Shown here one piece after another: positions 26 to 14,612 of a stretch of DNA of 64,000 nucleotides; position 1 is the first letter of the stretch; each line of letters opens with the position of its first letter. This stretch comes from Pseudanabaena sp. PCC 6802. Its GTDB lineage: Bacteria; Cyanobacteriota; Cyanobacteriia; Pseudanabaenales; Pseudanabaenaceae. Position numbers and translations under genes: made by a program. The stretch lies in NCBI RefSeq assembly GCF_000332175.1, contig NZ_KB235914.1, positions 2,600,868 through 2,664,867 on the forward strand, given 5' to 3'. Below the pieces are notes generated by a model. That model was not told the origin of the DNA. It made no database searches and worked only from the letters and a program-made list of their open reading frames with translations.

Positions 26-481
26 ATGGAAACTCAAGAAAACTTGCCCATAATATCTGCGATTCCTGCACCAGTCCGAGATCGTTCAGTCAGACCGCCG
101 TGGAAATGCTTTTGTTGCTGCGACTCTGGCAAGGTATCTAACCCATACCTCAGCAATTTTGTACTAGGGGAAAATGGCAAGCCATTCATCTGTCAGCGAC
201 CAGATTGTGAGGAAGGGAAAAAATACCACACTGCCTATTATCTATCTGATGCTCAACGGCAGGAATATGCCAAAAAGCACGGCGGGGAAGCCATGTCAAG
301 TCGTGAGTATCAAGCTCAGTGGGACATGCGCCTTACTGCTGCCCACTGCGAACAGATGCACCTATGGCACAAGGCGGATTGGGATAAACACGCAGCCCAG
401 AGATCTAAACGGCTCAACTACGGGCAACCAATTTCTAGCCTCACCCAGAAACTATCAATGCCCAATGGCAAGGAATCTTGA
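26..481 (+). CDS. Cys-rich accessory protein (left copy)
   Basis: A 151-residue protein with a strong AGGAGG ribosome-binding site just before the ATG. It carries a cysteine cluster near residues 28-32 (KCFCCC) and a second Cys pair near residues 56-61 (CQRPDC), which together look like a metal-binding or zinc-ribbon site; the rest is charged and helical. I do not recognise the family. A clear paralog lies at 2114-2569 on the opposite strand, and both copies directly precede a C5 DNA methyltransferase start with overlapping stop and start codons (here TGATG). The repeated pairing suggests a functional link with the methyltransferase, for example DNA recognition, but that is inference. It is not a CHC2 primase: the Cys spacing differs and no Toprim domain follows. 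Confidence 0.75.
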   Translation: METQENLPIISAIPAPVRDRSVRPPWKCFCCCDSGKVSNPYLSNFVLGENGKPFICQRPDCEEGKKYHTAYYLSDAQRQEYAKKHGGEAMSSREYQAQWDMRLTAAHCEQMHLWHKADWDKHAAQRSKRLNYGQPISSLTQKLSMPNGKES

Positions 482-1227
482 TGAAGCATCTCGATCTGTT
501 CGCTGGCATCGGCGGGTTTACCCTCGCAGCCCAATCGCTCGGCATTGAGACCGTGCAATTTGTCGAAATCAACTCCTACTGCTGCCATGTTCTACGAAAA
601 AACTTCCCCACCATCCCCATCCACAGAGATATCAGGACTTTCCATGCCAAGCCAAACCAATTCGACCTCATCACGGGTGGATCTCCCTGCCAAGACCTCA
701 GCCTCGCTGGCAAACGCACGGGAATTGCAGGCAGTCGCTCAGGACTCTGGTTCGAGATGCTCCGAATCATCGAGGCAGCAAAGCCCAGATTTGTCATTTG
801 GGAAAACGTCAAAGGAGCTTTCTACACAGGTGGACTTGCCGAAGTTTTGCAAGGACTCTGCCAATTGGGCTATCGCTTCGATGTGGAAATCCTATCGGCA
901 GCGGCAGTCGGAGCACCCCATCTACGCGAACGCATCTTTGTGGCTGCCTACGCCAGTAGCCTATGCGGGCAAGCACCGCCCTGGTCAAACCAAGTTAGAT
1001 CGCAAATTGCGGCTGTTACCGACCCCAACGGCATCGCAGGGATTCGGTCTGGTGCAGGAAATCAAACCATACTTGCCCCCTGGCGAAGTCTTAAACCCCC
1101 AATTTGTGGAGTGGCTCATGGGCTTTCCAGAAGATTGGACAGACTTGCAGCGATCGGCAACGCAGTTGTCCCTGCCGTAGCGGCGATCGCCCTGCAACGT
1201 GTTTTGTACTTGGAAAATTTGAGGTAA
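481..1227 (+). CDS. DNA (cytosine-5) methyltransferase
   Basis: Methylates cytosine C5 in DNA. Visible motifs: motif I near residues 4-12 (DLFAGIGGF, SAM binding), motif IV near residue 66 (GSPCQDLSLAG, catalytic Cys), motif VI near residue 101 (WENVKG), motif VIII (LRERIFVAA) and motif X near the C-terminus (IGNAVVPAVAA). At 248 residues it is short for the family, so the target recognition domain is minimal; small C5 enzymes of this kind are common in phages and integrated elements. I take the ATG at 481, which overlaps the preceding stop as TGATG. No restriction endonuclease is adjacent, so it looks solitary. A second long frame (545-1180) overlaps almost the whole gene and also carries methyltransferase-like motifs. 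The right-hand homolog (1971-2117) is a deletion remnant. Confidence 0.88.
   Translation: MKHLDLFAGIGGFTLAAQSLGIETVQFVEINSYCCHVLRKNFPTIPIHRDIRTFHAKPNQFDLITGGSPCQDLSLAGKRTGIAGSRSGLWFEMLRIIEAAKPRFVIWENVKGAFYTGGLAEVLQGLCQLGYRFDVEILSAAAVGAPHLRERIFVAAYASSLCGQAPPWSNQVRSQIAAVTDPNGIAGIRSGAGNQTILAPWRSLKPPICGVAHGLSRRLDRLAAIGNAVVPAVAAIALQRVLYLENLR
545..1180 (+). other. Overlapping +1 frame with methyltransferase-associated motifs
   Basis: An open frame of 211 codons lies in the +1 register inside the C5 methyltransferase gene. Its last 80 or so residues contain two LPTP motifs (WLPTPVAYAG and LLPTPTASQG), then LNPQFVEWLMGFPEDWTDL. From memory of phage proteins, this LPTP...LNPxxVEWLMGFPxGWTD pattern belongs to a family often found beside or overlapping dcm-like genes. 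The same nucleotides give the canonical VAHGLSRRLDRLAAIGNAVVP in the methyltransferase frame. Either both frames are translated, or one is a fossil of an ancestral frame switch. No ribosome-binding site or start codon decides the matter. Listed for its content, not as a proven gene. Confidence 0.35.
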
Positions 1228-1970: not shown

Positions 1971-2117
1971 CTAGATAACTGAATCGAGATACAAAACTCT
2001 TTGCAGGGCGATTCCCTTCGGGATGCGTACCGCCGCTGCTACAGCAGGAACAACAGTCTTGCCGAGCGCAGCAAGGCTAAAGCCACCGATGGCAGAGAAT
2101 AAATCGAGGTGTTTCAT
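1971..2117 (-). pseudogene. Collapsed C5 methyltransferase remnant
   Basis: Reading the minus strand from the ATG at 2117 gives a 48-residue open frame. It begins like the left-hand enzyme (MKHLDLFSAIGGFSLAA against MKHLDLFAGIGGFTLAA) and then jumps straight to its C-terminus (VVPAVAA...IALQRVLYLDS). Motifs II-IX, including the catalytic PCQ, are missing. A short insertion around 2004-2030 with a hairpin (CATCCCGAAGGGAAT) adds about seven codons, and the junction contains an inverted repeat (CTTGCTGCGCTCGGCAAG). Frame is preserved, so a micro-protein could still be made, but it cannot methylate DNA. Its ATG overlaps the upstream stop as ATGA, exactly where an active methyltransferase gene would start. 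Confidence 0.82.
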
Positions 2118-2569
2118 CTACGCTCCTTCTCGATTGGCATGGATAACTGCTGATTCAGGCTAGAGATTGCTTGCCCGTAGTTGAGCCTTTGCGATCGCTC
2201 TTGCGCCCAGGTGTCCCATTGCCTTTTGTGCCAGAGGTGCATCTGTTCGCAGTGGGCAACTGTGAGGCGAACGTCCCATTGAGCTTGATACTCTGCCTGA
2301 GTCATGGCCTCACCGCCATACTTTTGAGCGTGGTCCTGACGCTGGGCATCAGTGGCAAAGTAAGCATTCCTATACTTTTCCCCCGCTTTGCAGGCGAGAC
2401 GCTGACAGATGAAGGGTTTGCCGTTCTTCCCGCTAACTAACTGGCTCGGATAGGGGTTATCGACCAGTCCCCCGTCGCAACAGCAGAAGCATTTCCACTG
2501 AGGGCGGACATCGCGATCTGATCGCGGAGAGGCTGGAATTGCTATGAGCTTTTCGTATTCGTCACTCAT
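2114..2569 (-). CDS. Cys-rich accessory protein (right copy)
   Basis: A 151-residue paralog of the first gene. It shares the Cys cluster (WKCFCCCDGG), the NGKPFICQR segment, the GGEAM...EYQAQWD segment and HCEQMHLWHK, at roughly 60 percent identity by eye. Its start overlaps the preceding stop (TAATG) and its own stop overlaps the ATG of the methyltransferase remnant, so the minus-strand genes form a tightly coupled operon. The family is unknown. Persistence of this gene beside a dead methyltransferase argues either that it has its own role or that the deletion is recent. Confidence 0.72.
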   Translation of the reverse strand: MSDEYEKLIAIPASPRSDRDVRPQWKCFCCCDGGLVDNPYPSQLVSGKNGKPFICQRLACKAGEKYRNAYFATDAQRQDHAQKYGGEAMTQAEYQAQWDVRLTVAHCEQMHLWHKRQWDTWAQERSQRLNYGQAISSLNQQLSMPIEKERR

Positions 2570-2936: not shown

Positions 2937-3275
2937 TTAAAAAATGGTGACGATCTTGCTGCCGATCGCCAGGCGGATGGTTTTGACCAGACTTTCCAAC
3001 TGCGGCAGCACCGCTTCGATGTCTGCATCGATAACCGTGCGGAAATTGACTTGAGAGCGCCACTCCTCCAGTTTTTTCACGGCAACTTGAATAGGCGATT
3101 CCTTGGGCAATAGGGGAATGCGGAAGATTTTGCAAACTTCCTGCGCGTACTTGCCAACGGGAACGCAATGCCGATCGCTCTTGGTAAATTCAGTCATCAG
3201 GCGAGTGGTAACACCGATCGCGCGTTGCCGTAGCGTTGGGTCGAGGGGGAGTAAGGGTTTGAGACGAGTACTCAT
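2937..3275 (-). CDS. Unknown small accessory protein
   Basis: A 112-residue protein whose ATG overlaps the stop of the upstream gene by 4 bases (ATGA), indicating translational coupling. It contains a possible helical N-terminal half (RQRAIGVTTRLMTEF) and a second helical half ending VKTIRLAIGSKIVTIF. I do not recognise the family. Its neighbours (small ribbon-helix-helix-like gene upstream, Cys-rich gene downstream) suggest plasmid or integrated-element cargo. The C-terminus falls in a homopolymer run, so the true C-terminus may be longer if slippage or a sequencing error is involved. Confidence 0.55.
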   Translation of the reverse strand: MSTRLKPLLPLDPTLRQRAIGVTTRLMTEFTKSDRHCVPVGKYAQEVCKIFRIPLLPKESPIQVAVKKLEEWRSQVNFRTVIDADIEAVLPQLESLVKTIRLAIGSKIVTIF

Positions 3276-3442
3276 ACCTTTACCCCCTCCGCAAATAGCT
3301 GTTCTAGCTTCTGGGCGTAGGGGAGAACGCCATCATCGATGATGCGACGAATGGGGATGCCCGTCCGCGCAGACACTTGCTTGAGGTAATCGTGCACCTC
3401 AACCGAAATGTCCGTTTTAGTTGTCTTGAACGATCGCGACAT
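3272..3442 (-). CDS. Ribbon-helix-helix-like small protein
   Basis: Using the internal ATG at 3442 gives a 56-residue protein starting MSRSFKTTKTDISVEVHDYL. The short strand followed by two helices (TDISVEVHDYLKQVSARTG, then RRIIDDGVLPYAQKLEQL) is typical of ribbon-helix-helix DNA-binding proteins such as CopG/ParG-type regulators. It is the first gene of the minus-strand operon and faces a divergently transcribed HTH gene at 3534; a perfect inverted repeat lies between them, suitable as an operator. The role, regulator or partition-like accessory, is inferred. Confidence 0.55.
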   Translation of the reverse strand: MSRSFKTTKTDISVEVHDYLKQVSARTGIPIRRIIDDGVLPYAQKLEQLFAEGVKV

Positions 3443-3487
3443 AATTATGTATAAGAGTGTATATGTACACAATATTACTTTTTGTGC

Positions 3488-3507
3488 GTACATGCGTCAA
3501 CATGTAC
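3488..3507. promoter_or_regulatory. Perfect inverted repeat, candidate operator
   Basis: GTACATG, 6-base spacer, CATGTAC: a perfect 7+7 inverted repeat in the 91-base gap between two divergent genes. A second smaller one, TGTA-TATG-TACA, sits near 3461-3472. Such symmetry is expected of an operator for a dimeric repressor, most likely the product of one of the flanking small DNA-binding genes. Confidence 0.5.
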
Positions 3508-3533
3508 TTAGACTCTGCGATCGCTCTTAAGAT

Positions 3534-3980
3534 ATGTATGATGACCAGCGCGTAAAAATTGATAAGGTAAGGTTTCAGGCATGGATTGCGGCTGAGGTGG
3601 CTAAGTCCAGTCAGAATCGCGTGGCGAAAGAGCTTGGCACGACTCATGCAACGATTAACCGCTACGTCCACGGCAAGGTGGATGCGGTGACGGGCAGGCA
3701 AATGAATGCGATCGCTGCTTATCGGGGGGAGTCCGTGCAGGATACGTTGAGATTGTTTGCGCTACCCCTGCCAGAGGTGCAACCTGCAACTGGGGATTTA
3801 GGCGATCGCCTTGCTACGCTAGAGGAGAAGTACGAGCAGCTTTTGGCTGAGGTCGAACTTTTGAAGGATGAGCGGGAACTTCTCGCAACTGAGGTGGGCA
3901 ATTTGAAGGAATTCGTTGAAGTGCTGATCGAGGAATTCAATGAGGCGAAAAGAGCTAAAGGCAGCAAAAATAAGATTTGA
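3534..3980 (+). CDS. HTH and coiled-coil DNA-binding protein
   Basis: A 148-residue protein. Residues 15-50 form a helix-turn-helix (AKELGTTHATINRYVHGK), resembling short XRE-type repressors. Residues 85-140 are a coiled coil rich in Leu and Glu (LATLEEKYEQLLAEVELLKDE), which probably drives oligomerisation. The architecture is like plasmid or phage regulators with a coiled-coil tail. It opens the plus-strand group leading to the UmuD-like gene and overlaps the next gene by 41 bases. The inverted repeat at 3488-3507 just upstream may be its own operator. Confidence 0.6.
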   Translation: MYDDQRVKIDKVRFQAWIAAEVAKSSQNRVAKELGTTHATINRYVHGKVDAVTGRQMNAIAAYRGESVQDTLRLFALPLPEVQPATGDLGDRLATLEEKYEQLLAEVELLKDERELLATEVGNLKEFVEVLIEEFNEAKRAKGSKNKI

Positions 3981-4263
3981 GGATATCGAAAGGTATCTAC
4001 GGATTTGCGATCGCGTGGTGGAGGACGAGCGATCGCTAACGATCTCTTGCTCTGAGTCGGTGGCAAGAAACCTCAAATCCAGACTCGATGCGCTCTTGTT
4101 GAAGTACGATTGTTTGGAAAAAATTACGATTAATGGGGAGATTGTTTACAGACATCTACCTGTGCTGCTTGAGCCTCCTGGCAAGGGATTCAGGTTGGAA
4201 CGGGTAGAGATAGACTTGAGCGATCTTGTCAAAATTCCCTTGCGACAGATGAAAAAAAGGTAG
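3940..4263 (+). CDS. Unknown protein, coupled to HTH gene
   Basis: A 107-residue basic protein overlapping the preceding gene in another frame by 41 bases. Predicted mostly alpha with a short beta hairpin (KITINGEIVYRHLPV). No motif that I can assign. Two in-frame features argue that it is real: the frame continues 283 bases beyond the upstream stop, and codon content matches its neighbours. It could begin a few codons later. Function unknown. Confidence 0.5.
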   Translation: MRRKELKAAKIRFEDIERYLRICDRVVEDERSLTISCSESVARNLKSRLDALLLKYDCLEKITINGEIVYRHLPVLLEPPGKGFRLERVEIDLSDLVKIPLRQMKKR

Positions 4264-6458: not shown

Positions 6459-7248
6459 TGTCGGGCACACTTTCCAGGCAACAGATTGGGGCACTCCACA
6501 AGGGTCGCCGACAAAGAGCTAGAAGCAAGAGGGCATCGCTTTGCACGGTATATGGATGACCTGGTAATCTTGGTCAAAAGTAGGCGGGCAGGGACTAGGG
6601 TGATGGCGAATATCAGCCAGTACTTGAGCCAAAAGCTGAAGCTCAAAGTGAATCGGCAGAAGAGTCGTGTGGTGAGGACTGACAAATTAGAGTTCCTGGG
6701 ATTTGTATTTCGAGGCATTCGGATTTGGTGGTCTGACCAAGCCTATCGCGATTTCGTGCATCGACTGCGCGGATTAACGTCTCGTAGTTGGGGTGTTTCG
6801 ATGGAGTACCGCATGGAACGATTGAACCGATACTTACGAGGCTGGATGAACTACTACGGCATTTCCCAGCATTACAGTCCGATTGAGCAGTTGGATGGTT
6901 GGTTGCGGCGACGGATTCGTATGTGTTATTGGAAACAGTGGCGCAGACCTCGCACCCGTATTCGCCATCTGCTGGCATTAGGAACTAGTAAGCGACAGGC
7001 GATTTTGACGGGCATTAGTCGCAAAGGCTATTGGCGTTTGTCAAAGACTCTGGCGACCCATACGGGTATGTCGAATCAGTGGTTACAGCAACAGGGTTGG
7101 CTTTCAGTGCGAGATCTTTGGATGAAAGTCCAGGGTTATGCCTGATTTTCCTTTGGGTTTGTTTGCGCGGCAATTATGAACCGCCCGGTGCGGACCCGCA
7201 CGCCGGGTGGTGTGGGAGGGAAGGACTAAACACCCTTCTCGACCCGAT
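6459..7248 (+). mobile_element. Group II intron 3' fragment
   Basis: Closely matches the 3' part of the intron at 11873-14714: the reverse transcriptase C-terminal half, domain V near 7178-7212, and domain VI with a bulged-A candidate in GGACTAAAC. The 5' half is missing from about 6459. An internal deletion near 6509 removes about 40 bases (after GGGTCGCC, resuming at GACAAAGAG), so the RT frame is shifted at that point relative to the full copy. The fragment cannot splice or retrotranspose by itself. Confidence 0.85.
6486..7145 (+). pseudogene. Truncated group II intron reverse transcriptase/maturase
   Basis: Contains RT motif FARYMDDLVILVKS, then the maturase X-domain (MEYRMERLNRYLRGWMNYYG, LDGWLRRRIRMCYWKQW). 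It lacks RT motifs 0-4 because the 5' part of the intron is gone and a 40-base internal deletion disrupts the region just before YMDD. The full copy (13281-14612) is 443 residues, and this piece is nearly identical to its last 210. Not expected to be functional. Confidence 0.85.
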
Positions 7249-7574: not shown

Positions 7575-8768
7575 ATGCCCCTTTCCGTAACAAATCACAA
7601 GGCTCTTTCCACCGTGAGTGATATTGCAGCCTCTTGTAATTCCCTTACTTGTGCAGAGTACTTTGCAGGAATTGGGCTGGTAAGATTGGGACTAGAGAAA
7701 ATGGGCTGGAAAGTCGTTTTTGCAAATGATTGGGCACACGACAAATTTGAAATGTATTCTGCTCATTTCAGAGATGCAAGCCAGCATTACAAGGTTCAAG
7801 ATATTTTTTCTATTTGTCATGCTGATGTTCCTAATACACTACTTGCAACAGCTTCATTTCCATGTATCGATTTATCCTTGGCAGGCAACTTGAAGGGCAT
7901 TAGCGGCGAACATTCTAGCGCTTTTTGGGGGTTTACTCAAATTCTTGAAAATCAAGCAAGTAAACCATACCTCGTAATGCTAGAGAATGTAACAGGGTGG
8001 CTTACTTCAAATAATGGTCAGGACTTCCGAATCACGATTCAGGAATTGAATAGGTTGGGTTATGCTTGTGATGTTTACGCTATCGATGCAGCACATTTTG
8101 TGCCTCAAAGTAGACCTCGCATCTTTGTTATTGGGGTGCATACTTCCCATTCAGATCAGAACATACTCACTCTTTTAAAACGTTCTCCCTCACTTAAGAC
8201 CAAGGCACTTGAAAAAGCAGTCATGGCTAATCAGGATTTGCGTTGGCATTTTGTAGAAGTTCCATCACTGCCTGAAAAGGTAAAAACAAATGTGAGTTGT
8301 ATTGTGGAACATGTACCCAACGATGATGTTCGTTGGTGGCTAAATGATGAAGTGAATCGCCATTTGAGCATGATGTCGCCTGTCAATCTAAATTATCTAA
8401 AGGAATTCCAGAATTTACCGTATTACTCTTATTGCACAATGTATCGGCGGGTACGAATAGGAAAGCAACGAGCAGAACTTAGAAAGGATGGCATTGCAGG
8501 TTGCTTAAGAACTGCTAGAGGCGGCAGTAGTCGGCAAATGTTAGTCAGAGTTGGACAAGGAACTATCAAAATGCGCCTTATGACACCTCGTGAGTATGCA
8601 AGACTACAGGGCGTGCCAGATAACTACCCCATTCCATCACAAATCAATCAAGCTTTGACTGGATTTGGTGATGCTGTTTGCGTACCTGTCATTACCTGGA
8701 TCGCTGAAAATGTCTTTAGTACTTTAGTTAAGGCGCTTCAAGAAAATACGTTAGCTCTCCATTGCTGA
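7575..8768 (+). CDS. DNA (cytosine-5) methyltransferase, type II RM
   Basis: A 397-residue full-length C5 methyltransferase. Motif I AEYFAGIGLVRLGLE (near residue 27), IV SFPCIDLSLAG (near residue 97, catalytic Cys), VI LENVTGW (near residue 137), VIII FVPQSRPRIFVIG (near residue 177), then the target recognition region, IX LMTPREYARLQGVPDNY and X FGDAVCVPVI. It protects host DNA from the partner nuclease. The 3' end overlaps the convergent nuclease gene by 41 bases. It is unrelated in detail to the small enzyme at 481-1227. Recognition sequence cannot be read from the protein. Confidence 0.92.
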   Translation: MPLSVTNHKALSTVSDIAASCNSLTCAEYFAGIGLVRLGLEKMGWKVVFANDWAHDKFEMYSAHFRDASQHYKVQDIFSICHADVPNTLLATASFPCIDLSLAGNLKGISGEHSSAFWGFTQILENQASKPYLVMLENVTGWLTSNNGQDFRITIQELNRLGYACDVYAIDAAHFVPQSRPRIFVIGVHTSHSDQNILTLLKRSPSLKTKALEKAVMANQDLRWHFVEVPSLPEKVKTNVSCIVEHVPNDDVRWWLNDEVNRHLSMMSPVNLNYLKEFQNLPYYSYCTMYRRVRIGKQRAELRKDGIAGCLRTARGGSSRQMLVRVGQGTIKMRLMTPREYARLQGVPDNYPIPSQINQALTGFGDAVCVPVITWIAENVFSTLVKALQENTLALHC

Positions 8769-9270
8769 TTTCTAACAGTCGAACACCTTGACTCCTGACA
8801 AAGCCATAAGTTACCGAACGTCGAAACCTCTGTCTGTCCGCAGTTTCATAGTTTTGAACTAATTCGGGTAACCATTTGTCAAACGTGGAAATCATCTTGG
8901 TACGCTCGACCAGCCAAATTTCAACATTTGTATATGTTTCGCTTCTAGCGACAAAGATGTGATCTACATCTCTGTCATCTGTTAGTTTGTCCAACCCACG
9001 ATTTCTGTGATACTGGTACTCAAAGCTGCCTCCAATAACAGCAGACTTAACTTCATAATTCATCAAATCTGCTCCGTCTCCTCTTCGTGCTCTATCATTC
9101 AGTAAAATTGCAGCAAACACCTCCCAATCTTTTGAGCCTACACTTCCTTGTAAAGAGAAGCCGTACCGTTCATAAATTTCGGCTTTATTCTGGCTATATT
9201 CGAGAATGTATGCTCTGTAAAAAGAGTAAGCTTCTTGAACTTGAAGATTTGGCACACAAATCACCCTCAA
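8728..9270 (-). CDS. Type II restriction endonuclease candidate (PD-(D/E)XK)
   Basis: About 180 residues, convergent with and overlapping the methyltransferase. It contains GADLMNYEVKSAVIGGSFEY (residues ~88-108), which fits a PD-(D/E)XK core: the Asp of GADLMN and then E-V-K. Preceding helix KDWEVFAAILLNDRARRGDG. The context (methyltransferase partner plus controller) makes a restriction enzyme the best call, although I cannot place it in a named family. The start is uncertain: TTG at 9270 or GTG at 9264 or further in, with no strong ribosome-binding site. Weak initiation would suit a nuclease that must be made late. Confidence 0.7.
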   Translation of the reverse strand: MRVICVPNLQVQEAYSFYRAYILEYSQNKAEIYERYGFSLQGSVGSKDWEVFAAILLNDRARRGDGADLMNYEVKSAVIGGSFEYQYHRNRGLDKLTDDRDVDHIFVARSETYTNVEIWLVERTKMISTFDKWLPELVQNYETADRQRFRRSVTYGFVRSQGVRLLEISNGELTYFLEAP

Positions 9271-13280: not shown

Positions 13281-14612
13281 ATGAACAACTCAGACGCATC
13301 GATGAACCCGACCGGGGGAGATGACGGATGGCGTGCTGACATAAAGCCAGCCTTAGACAACCTAATGGCGCGAATATTAGAGCGCAACAATGTGCAACAG
13401 GCATGGGGAAGGGTGAAATCGAACCAAGGAGCAGCCGGAATCGACGGTATGACTATAGGAGATTTCCTCGACTATGCAAGGGAGCATTGGACAGAGATTC
13501 GCGCTTCCCTGAAGGATGGTACGTATCAACCGCAGCCAGTGCGACAGGTAGTAATACCAAAGCCAAGAGGCGGCGAGAGAAAGCTAGGAATACCTTGTGT
13601 CATAGACCGGGTAATCCAACAAGCCATTCTACAAGTGTTATCGCCAATGTTTGAGCCAGGATTTTCGGACTCAAGCTATGGCAGCCGACCCAAGCGATCT
13701 GCCCACGGAGCAATTCGGCAGGTAAAGTCCGCCATCAAAGCAGGGTATCAAGTTGCGGTAGACATTGATTTGGAGAAATTCTTTGACAATGTAGACCACG
13801 ACATGCTGATGTCCCGCATTGCTCGGAAAGTAACCGATAAGGTACTTCTGGGTTTAATCGGACGGTATCTGCGAGCAGGAGTTATGGTCGGTCACACTTT
13901 CGCGGCAACGGATTGGGGCACTCCACAAGGGTCGCCACTGTCACCGTTGCTCGCCAACATCTTGTTGGATGACCTCGACAAAGAGTTAGAGGCCAGAGGA
14001 CATCGCTTTGCTCGCTATATGGATGACCTGGTCATACTAGTCAAAAGTAGACGGGCAGGGACTAGGGTAATGGCTAATATCAGTCAGTACCTCAGCCAAA
14101 AGCTGAAGCTCAAAGTAAATCGGCAGAAAAGTCGTGTGGTCAGGACTGACAAATTAGAATTTCTGGGATTTACGTTCCGAGGAATTCGGATTTGGTGGTC
14201 AGACCAAGCCTATCGGGATTTCATACATCGACTGCGGGGCTTAACGTCACGTAGTTGGGGTGTTTCAATGGAGTACCGCATGGAACGGTTGAACCGATAC
14301 TTACGAGGTTGGATGAACTACTACGGCATTTCCCAGCATTACAGTCCAATTGAGCAGTTGGATGGTTGGTTGCGGCGACGAATTCGTATGTGTTACTGGA
14401 AACAGTGGCGCAGACCTCGCACTCGTATCCGACATCTGCTGGCTCTAGGCACTAGTAAACGACAGGCGATTTTGACCGGCATTAGTCGCAAAGGCTATTG
14501 GCGTTTGTCAAAGACTCTGGCAACCCATACGGGAATGACGAATCAGTGGTTACAGTTACAGGGTTGGCTTTCAGTGCGAGAACTTTGGATGAAAGTCCAG
14601 GGTTATGCCTGA
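13281..14612 (+). CDS. ltrA: Group II intron reverse transcriptase/maturase
   Basis: 443 residues, starting at an ATG after AAGGAGGA. RT motifs in order: NQGAAGIDGMT (RT0-1), RKLGIPCVIDRVIQQAIL (RT2), YGSRPKRSAHGAI, VDIDLEKFFDNVDHD (RT3 with catalytic Asp), GTPQGSPLSPLLANILLDDLD (RT4), ARYMDDLVILVKS (RT5, YMDD, near residue 249), LEFLGFTFRG (RT7), then the maturase X-domain/GIIM (LNRYLRGWMNYYG). There is no HNH endonuclease domain, as in many bacterial intron proteins. It normally assists splicing and reverse transcription of its host intron, but here the intron RNA is split by an IS. Confidence 0.93.
   Translation: MNNSDASMNPTGGDDGWRADIKPALDNLMARILERNNVQQAWGRVKSNQGAAGIDGMTIGDFLDYAREHWTEIRASLKDGTYQPQPVRQVVIPKPRGGERKLGIPCVIDRVIQQAILQVLSPMFEPGFSDSSYGSRPKRSAHGAIRQVKSAIKAGYQVAVDIDLEKFFDNVDHDMLMSRIARKVTDKVLLGLIGRYLRAGVMVGHTFAATDWGTPQGSPLSPLLANILLDDLDKELEARGHRFARYMDDLVILVKSRRAGTRVMANISQYLSQKLKLKVNRQKSRVVRTDKLEFLGFTFRGIRIWWSDQAYRDFIHRLRGLTSRSWGVSMEYRMERLNRYLRGWMNYYGISQHYSPIEQLDGWLRRRIRMCYWKQWRRPRTRIRHLLALGTSKRQAILTGISRKGYWRLSKTLATHTGMTNQWLQLQGWLSVRELWMKVQGYA

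Follow-up and report, generated by a model that had tools for sequence, protein, structure and literature searches.

A C5-cytosine methyltransferase gene in the DNA analysed here (a stretch of 64,000 nucleotides, referred to as the window) carries recognizable motifs in two overlapping reading frames, which raises the question of whether it encodes one protein or two, and of what a second protein would do. The original prediction held that frame 0 ends with CGVAHGLSRRLDRLAAIGNAVVPAVAAIALQRVLYLENLR, that the same DNA read in +1 gives two LPTP motifs and LNPQFVEWLMGFPEDWTDL, and that chance is unlikely to give both; either the gene was dual-coded, or two protein families had arisen from one gene by a frame switch. 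The motifs are present in both frames as described.

Results

Frame 0 Encodes a Methyltransferase Core Lacking Motif IX

Frame 0 is open across positions 481-1227 of the forward strand and encodes a 248-aa protein, alpha, which is homologous to M.HhaI and the other PF00145 monomers (profile E 1.9e-45). Alpha matched the Pfam family DNA_methylase PF00145 (8.9e-45), phrog_363 of PHROG (5.1e-72), and also TIGR00675, and its membership of PF00145 is given by the Pfam and PHROG matches together with motifs I, IV, VI, VIII, and X. In an alignment of alpha proteins, motif IV (PCQ, 685-693) with the catalytic Cys70, Glu108 of motif VI (ENV, 802-810), and Arg149 and Arg151 of motif VIII (RERIF, 925-939) were invariant; motif X (IGNAVVP, 1153-1173) lies in frame 0 at the point from which substitutions return to a single-frame pattern. 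The AF2 model of alpha (pLDDT 82) predicted a confident M.HhaI-like large domain, with M.HhaI as the best match in the PDB (TM 0.61, Foldseek 9.7e-15), and a confident C-terminal motif X helix; segment 185-218 was modelled with low confidence and overlaps the most constrained part of the nested frame. PF00145 monomers such as M.HhaI have all motifs on one chain, unlike the window gene. When motif IX was sought in the alpha chain it was absent from frame 0, and it was found in the +1 frame instead. Since motif IX is missing in the one frame and present in the other, alpha represents the core of a C5 methyltransferase, containing motifs I-VIII and X, and not a complete monomeric enzyme.

The +1 Frame Supplies Motif IX and a Candidate Target-Recognition Region

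The +1 frame is open from position 485 to a TAG at 1178-1180. Counted from its predicted ATG start, the nested ORF, beta, spans 644-1180 of the forward strand (178 aa) and lies wholly within alpha. It contains a first LPTP motif (LPTPVAY, 944-955) resembling the "TL" motif of target-recognition domains (TRDs), a second LPTP motif (LPTPTAS, 1016-1027), and LNPQFVEWLMGFPEDWTDL at 1091-1147, a stretch that reads CGVAHGLSRRLDRL in the alpha frame; one DNA segment thus has two readings, VAHGLSRRLDRL in frame 0 and WLMGFPEDWTDL in +1. Judged by the phrog_1008 match given below, LNPQFVEWLMGFPEDWTDL is a good motif IX, and the codon-position test described below bears on the same stretch. The original prediction likened this ending to that of phage proteins associated with dcm-like genes; phage homologs do exist, but the segment is motif IX itself and not merely a phage-associated ending. 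The motifs of alpha and motif IX of beta are therefore complementary and together make up all motifs of one enzyme.

The C-terminal part of beta matched phrog_1008, annotated "DNA methyltransferase" (4.9e-14), and no known domain was matched by its N-terminal part in Pfam and profile searches. A beta profile gave no significant match against the PDB, and beta modelled alone in AF2 was poor (pLDDT 59); because of this poor model and the lack of a sequence relative in the PDB, the predicted small-domain fold of beta stays tentative. The TL motif has been defined as P[STCA]PT[ILV][TASV], located between motifs VIII and IX (PMC2413257). The window gene reads PTPTAS, and among 152 nested genes the motif was found in the betas of 7 in its strict form and of 56 in a relaxed form. 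In the same 152 genes, xPTP occurred in the +1 frame of 140, in the alpha frame of 3, and in the +2 frame of 1. The PTPTA motifs of beta look TRD-like and close to the published TL motif. Two relatives, L170 and L171, have very long betas of 331-457 aa, and L171 carries several repeated xPTP modules, which suggests several target-recognition units in its hidden frame.

Relatives in other arrangements bear on what beta might do. L244 (4131-5601) and L247 (reverse strand, 3139-4156 after reversal) are de-overlapped: in both, alpha ends past motif VIII, and motif IX is found in an extended +1 ORF, followed there by a separate X segment similar to EPxxxRVAxGxxxRxxRLxxLGNAVVPQ. L145 is fused, with motif IX (LNPDWVEWLMGYPISWTDGG) and motif X in frame with the catalytic motifs. 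The existence of these relatives shows that frames have been rearranged in this family, and that the overlap was made or unmade in evolution. That the two products look like halves of one enzyme, and that a precedent is known from experiment (M.EcoHK31I, see Discussion), goes beyond what the original prediction had seen. L244 and L247 should be useful for dating the origin of the overlap and for giving it a direction. That beta is a real protein with some other function, e.g., a regulator or an anti-restriction protein, would fit the unmatched N-terminal part; we regard this as improbable, given that the best conserved part of beta is motif IX, exactly what alpha lacks, located beside the TL-like LPTP motifs, that the beta ORF of the de-overlapped relatives contains both IX and X, and that the fused relative holds both in the methyltransferase frame.

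Beta Most Likely Starts at an ATG Inside the Alpha Gene

A candidate Shine-Dalgarno sequence of modest match, AGGA at 634-637 of the forward strand, lies 6 nt before ATG 644, and from these features beta most likely starts at this codon. A longer product from TTG 545 (211 aa), proposed in the original prediction, was set aside because constraint begins only near motif IV; the reading frame itself held up, and its product is probably the 178-aa protein. In relatives, the open stretch of the +1 frame begins shortly ahead of motif IV, where a clear Shine-Dalgarno sequence and an ATG are often present (e.g., L124, L150, L162, L167, and L107). A Shine-Dalgarno sequence preceded 36% of the ATGs at the expected beta start; for +1 ATGs farther downstream the share was 14%, and for ATGs in the +2 frame it was 11%. 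By the criterion of this analysis, only 62 of the 152 nested genes had an ATG with a clear Shine-Dalgarno sequence.

Frameshifting occurs in phage genes, and a programmed ribosomal frameshift could in principle join the two frames into a single alpha-beta fusion with motif VIII, the TRD, and motif IX on one chain. We consider this highly improbable. The +1 frame is open and constrained for about 100 codons upstream of motif VIII, which a fusion would not need, and getting back to motif X would take a second shift. In addition, a Shine-Dalgarno sequence and an ATG are present in many beta ORFs, and the betas of L244 and L247 have their own start codons. A programmed frameshift gene was rejected on the ground that constraint in +1 is not confined to the region downstream of a shift site, but starts at motif IV.

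Motif IX Excess and Stop Avoidance in the +1 Frame

To quantify the role of chance, codons were shuffled synonymously within each gene, which leaves the frame-0 protein unchanged, in 81 non-redundant relatives. The results showed that the motif IX pattern is present in the +1 frame of 72 of the 81 genes, where 3.1 were expected, and that a strict form of the motif is present in 68, where 0.5 were expected. From motif IV to motif X the 81 genes contained 56 stop codons in the +1 frame, against an expected 425 +/- 15. The claim that chance would hardly give both sets of motifs was thus borne out. The same shuffle test revealed neither a motif IX excess nor a stop depletion in the +2 frame, and neither in the +1 frame of 33 conventional methyltransferases. 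Stops were also counted by region in 76 diverse relatives. Three +1 stops were found between motifs IV and VIII (241.6 expected) and none between motifs VIII and IX (113 expected), and there was no depletion upstream of beta (198 stops, 165 expected) or downstream of motif IX (127 stops, 81 expected). Stop avoidance therefore begins and ends with beta.

The Nested Arrangement Recurs Across Phages

As the original prediction had proposed, a protein search was made with the +1 product, and homologs were found in cyanobacterial, mycobacterial, Bacteroides, enterobacterial, and other phages: tblastn gave matches in phages of Nodularia, Mycobacterium, Salmonella, and Bacteroides among others, and in all five phages checked (5/5) the match lay inside an annotated methyltransferase CDS, in +1 to its frame. 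Phages of unrelated hosts, with proteins 30-40% identical, retain both the +1 motif and the open frame. A wider set was assembled from loci in genomes and from 80 IMG/VR loci that an alignment of the catalytic protein had retrieved, and it split cleanly: conventional enzymes have motif IX in frame and nothing in +1, and enzymes lacking motif IX have it in +1, with motif X in frame 0. Within beta, motif IX stands at a near-fixed spacing, mostly 13-18 codons before motif X. The few genes lacking an in-frame motif IX that fell outside the search pattern and were read individually still showed recognizable, degenerate forms of motif IX in +1 (e.g., MMGFSIGWTA, LMAYPMNWT, and LMGYRIGHTEL). In an independent selection, contigs were picked solely by a back-translated DNA pattern of motif IX, ignoring the catalytic gene. 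Here 71 of the 81 occurrences were nested in +1 to a catalytic frame, and the other 10 were truncated, interrupted, or de-overlapped. A search of plasmid DNA with the motif region returned nothing useful. Together, these data indicated that the nested arrangement recurs in nearly every sampled phage gene that lacks motif IX.

The second frame is seldom recorded. In the RefSeq record of E. coli ETEC H10407 and in the Krischvirus record checked, only alpha is annotated, with beta open over 305 and 232 codons, respectively, and among the records sampled the beta of nested methyltransferases is usually left unannotated.

Both Frames Are Under Purifying Selection

Codon identity at conserved amino acids was compared with the expectation from codon usage. 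This synonymous-codon conservation was about 1.0 over alpha codons 1-45, climbed from codon 61 to reach 2.25 at codons 196-225, and was back to 1.04 at codons 226-240. For conventional methyltransferases the values were mostly 0.94-1.2, rising up to 1.33 in sparsely covered columns only. The comparison of codon positions across homologs that the original prediction had called for was carried out on 42 independent close pairs, by dividing the number of changes at alpha position 3 by that at position 1, and the pattern of substitutions indeed shifts to +1 periodicity. The ratio was about 2-4 in most stretches where only alpha is encoded; it lay close to 1 across the variable region, was 0.31 over motif IX, and reached 7.2 over motif X. 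The window gene and L063, an 86%-identical paralog in the same genome, show 24 differences from the LPTP motifs through motif IX, distributed 16/3/5 over alpha codon positions 1/2/3; 19 of the 24 are nonsynonymous in alpha, and 17 of the 24 are synonymous in beta, so that beta is the better protected frame in this stretch. Both frames are under purifying selection at the protein level over exactly the stretch predicted. In view of the stop depletion, the synonymous constraint, and the +1 codon pattern at motif IX, none of which is seen in the conventional enzymes, we conclude that the gene is dual-coded, the first of the two options originally offered: the +1 frame is free of stops, its synonymous codons are constrained, and substitutions follow its codons. 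The search could have ended with no homologs of the +1 frame, or with homologs bearing stops and no constraint at the shifted positions; homologs with an open and constrained frame were found.

The same results decide on the notion that frame 0 alone codes and that the +1 motifs are a neutral fossil, left behind by an ancestral motif IX that was once in frame and was later displaced from it. L145, L244, and L247, with their in-frame or de-overlapped arrangements, do show that such rearrangements happen in the family. Yet a fossil would hardly have kept motif and open frame in phages of unrelated hosts at that degree of protein divergence, stop avoidance and synonymous constraint are extreme, and at motif IX the +1 frame is better conserved than the alpha frame. 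We find the fossil scarcely credible, and it is rejected by the shuffle, synonymous, codon-position, and stop tests, barring a badly wrong shuffle null. An RNA structure or another nucleotide signal can by itself produce synonymous constraint, but the constraint here is periodic with the codons of the +1 frame, in that alpha position 1 varies freely and position 3 does not, and +1 stops are absent, both of which are signatures of translation, and this explanation is rejected by the +1 codon periodicity with a negligible likelihood of being correct.

Genomic Context and Further Copies

The 5.6-Mb genome of the window, probably cyanobacterial to judge from its nearest matches, contains three more copies of the methyltransferase gene. 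One copy, L064, is without its 5′ part. In the copy L065 (G000:C5:2099982-2100440) and in the IMG/VR locus L012, unrelated sequence interrupts the gene immediately past motif VII/VIII, and the remainder of both frames is missing. At the locus L034 (G002:C3:1168140-1168877) both frames are broken, alpha by a TGA and beta by stops around motif IX, a case of joint decay of the two proteins.

A short cysteine-containing protein with no Pfam match is encoded by two inverted copies of about 70% identity, at 26-481 (forward strand) and 2114-2569 (reverse strand), which flank the alpha/beta methyltransferase together with a gene for a small HTH protein. Segments related to these copies occur at several further sites in the genome. 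The window also contains, at 7575-8768 (forward strand), a C5 methyltransferase of the conventional type, whose motif IX is in frame; an ORF at 8728-9270 (reverse strand) overlaps it convergently and may encode its restriction partner. Two nearly identical ORFs for reverse transcriptases of the group II intron type are found at 6486-7145 (truncated) and 13281-14612. Mobile elements abound in the neighbourhood, so the methyltransferase locus is likely to stem from a prophage or mobile element.

Discussion

We take the locus to be dual-coded for a C5-cytosine DNA methyltransferase of two subunits, one gene fully nested in the other, in which beta supplies the small domain, and put the probability of this reading at about 85%. 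Alpha (481-1227) would form the catalytic large domain, which would bind SAM and comprise the PCQ nucleophile, ENV, and motif VIII, along with the motif X helix at the C terminus. Beta (644-1180) would be initiated separately in the +1 frame, at its own start inside the alpha gene, and would form the small domain, composed of the LPTP-bearing variable (target-recognition) region and motif IX. The two chains are predicted to associate as a heterodimer into one active methyltransferase, whose methylation site would be set mainly by beta as the target-recognizing chain. In its probably cyanobacterial host, the enzyme probably protects a mobile element or prophage against restriction, as its context suggests.

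The model is patterned on M.EcoHK31I, a C5 methyltransferase of two polypeptides whose 176-aa beta is reported to be nested in +1 within its 309-aa alpha gene; the window's 178-aa beta, which is under selection, would share this nesting of the small-chain ORF. M.EcoHK31I recognizes YGGCCR (Lee, Kam and Shaw 1995, doi 10.1093/nar/23.1.103, cited through PMC3404938), and in its description motifs I-VIII and X are located in the larger subunit, only motif IX in the smaller polypeptide, and the TRD in the large subunit (PMC3404938). The distribution of motifs over the chains is thus the same as in the window gene, whereas the TRD is there assigned to alpha and the TRD-like LPTP motifs are here in beta. 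The two also differ in host, no restriction enzyme partner is visible adjoining the window gene, and the likeness is one of motif layout; by this analogy, the window gene appears to follow a plan known experimentally from one E. coli enzyme. M.AquI (CYCGRG) is likewise a C5 enzyme split into alpha and beta, but its beta comprises the distal variable region together with motifs IX and X (PMC3404938), unlike the window gene, in which motif X belongs to alpha; it resembles L244 and L247, where alpha ends after motif VIII and beta holds IX and X. Annotated cases are also on record. Phage Lily gp63, labelled "g62 internal gene," is a +1 ORF nested in the cytosine methyltransferase gene gp62, and in phage K1G ORF30 is nested in +1 inside the methyltransferase ORF31, with both ORFs annotated; these are known as annotation, in which the internal product carries a label and no stated role. 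We found no prior survey of nested C5 methyltransferases in the literature searched, where coverage of subscription papers was thin, nor a statement there that the nested layout is the rule for phage and prophage C5 methyltransferases lacking motif IX, with beta mostly unannotated.

Fully nested genes with both products clearly selected are rare and hard to prove. The dual-coding signal here is very strong, and scores of unrelated phage genes show it as well. It is reasonably probable that, as a general rule, phage and prophage C5 methyltransferases lacking motif IX are obligate heterodimers whose recognition subunit is nested in +1 in the catalytic gene, and that they represent a hidden, mostly unannotated gene family in many phages, with specificity evolving under two-frame constraint. 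With the de-overlapped and fused relatives at hand, the origin of the overlap becomes directly testable. The dual-coding signal implies that annotation pipelines overlook the second subunit of a common enzyme, that alpha cloned alone should be inactive, and that the specificity of many phage methyltransferases should be looked for in the hidden frame.
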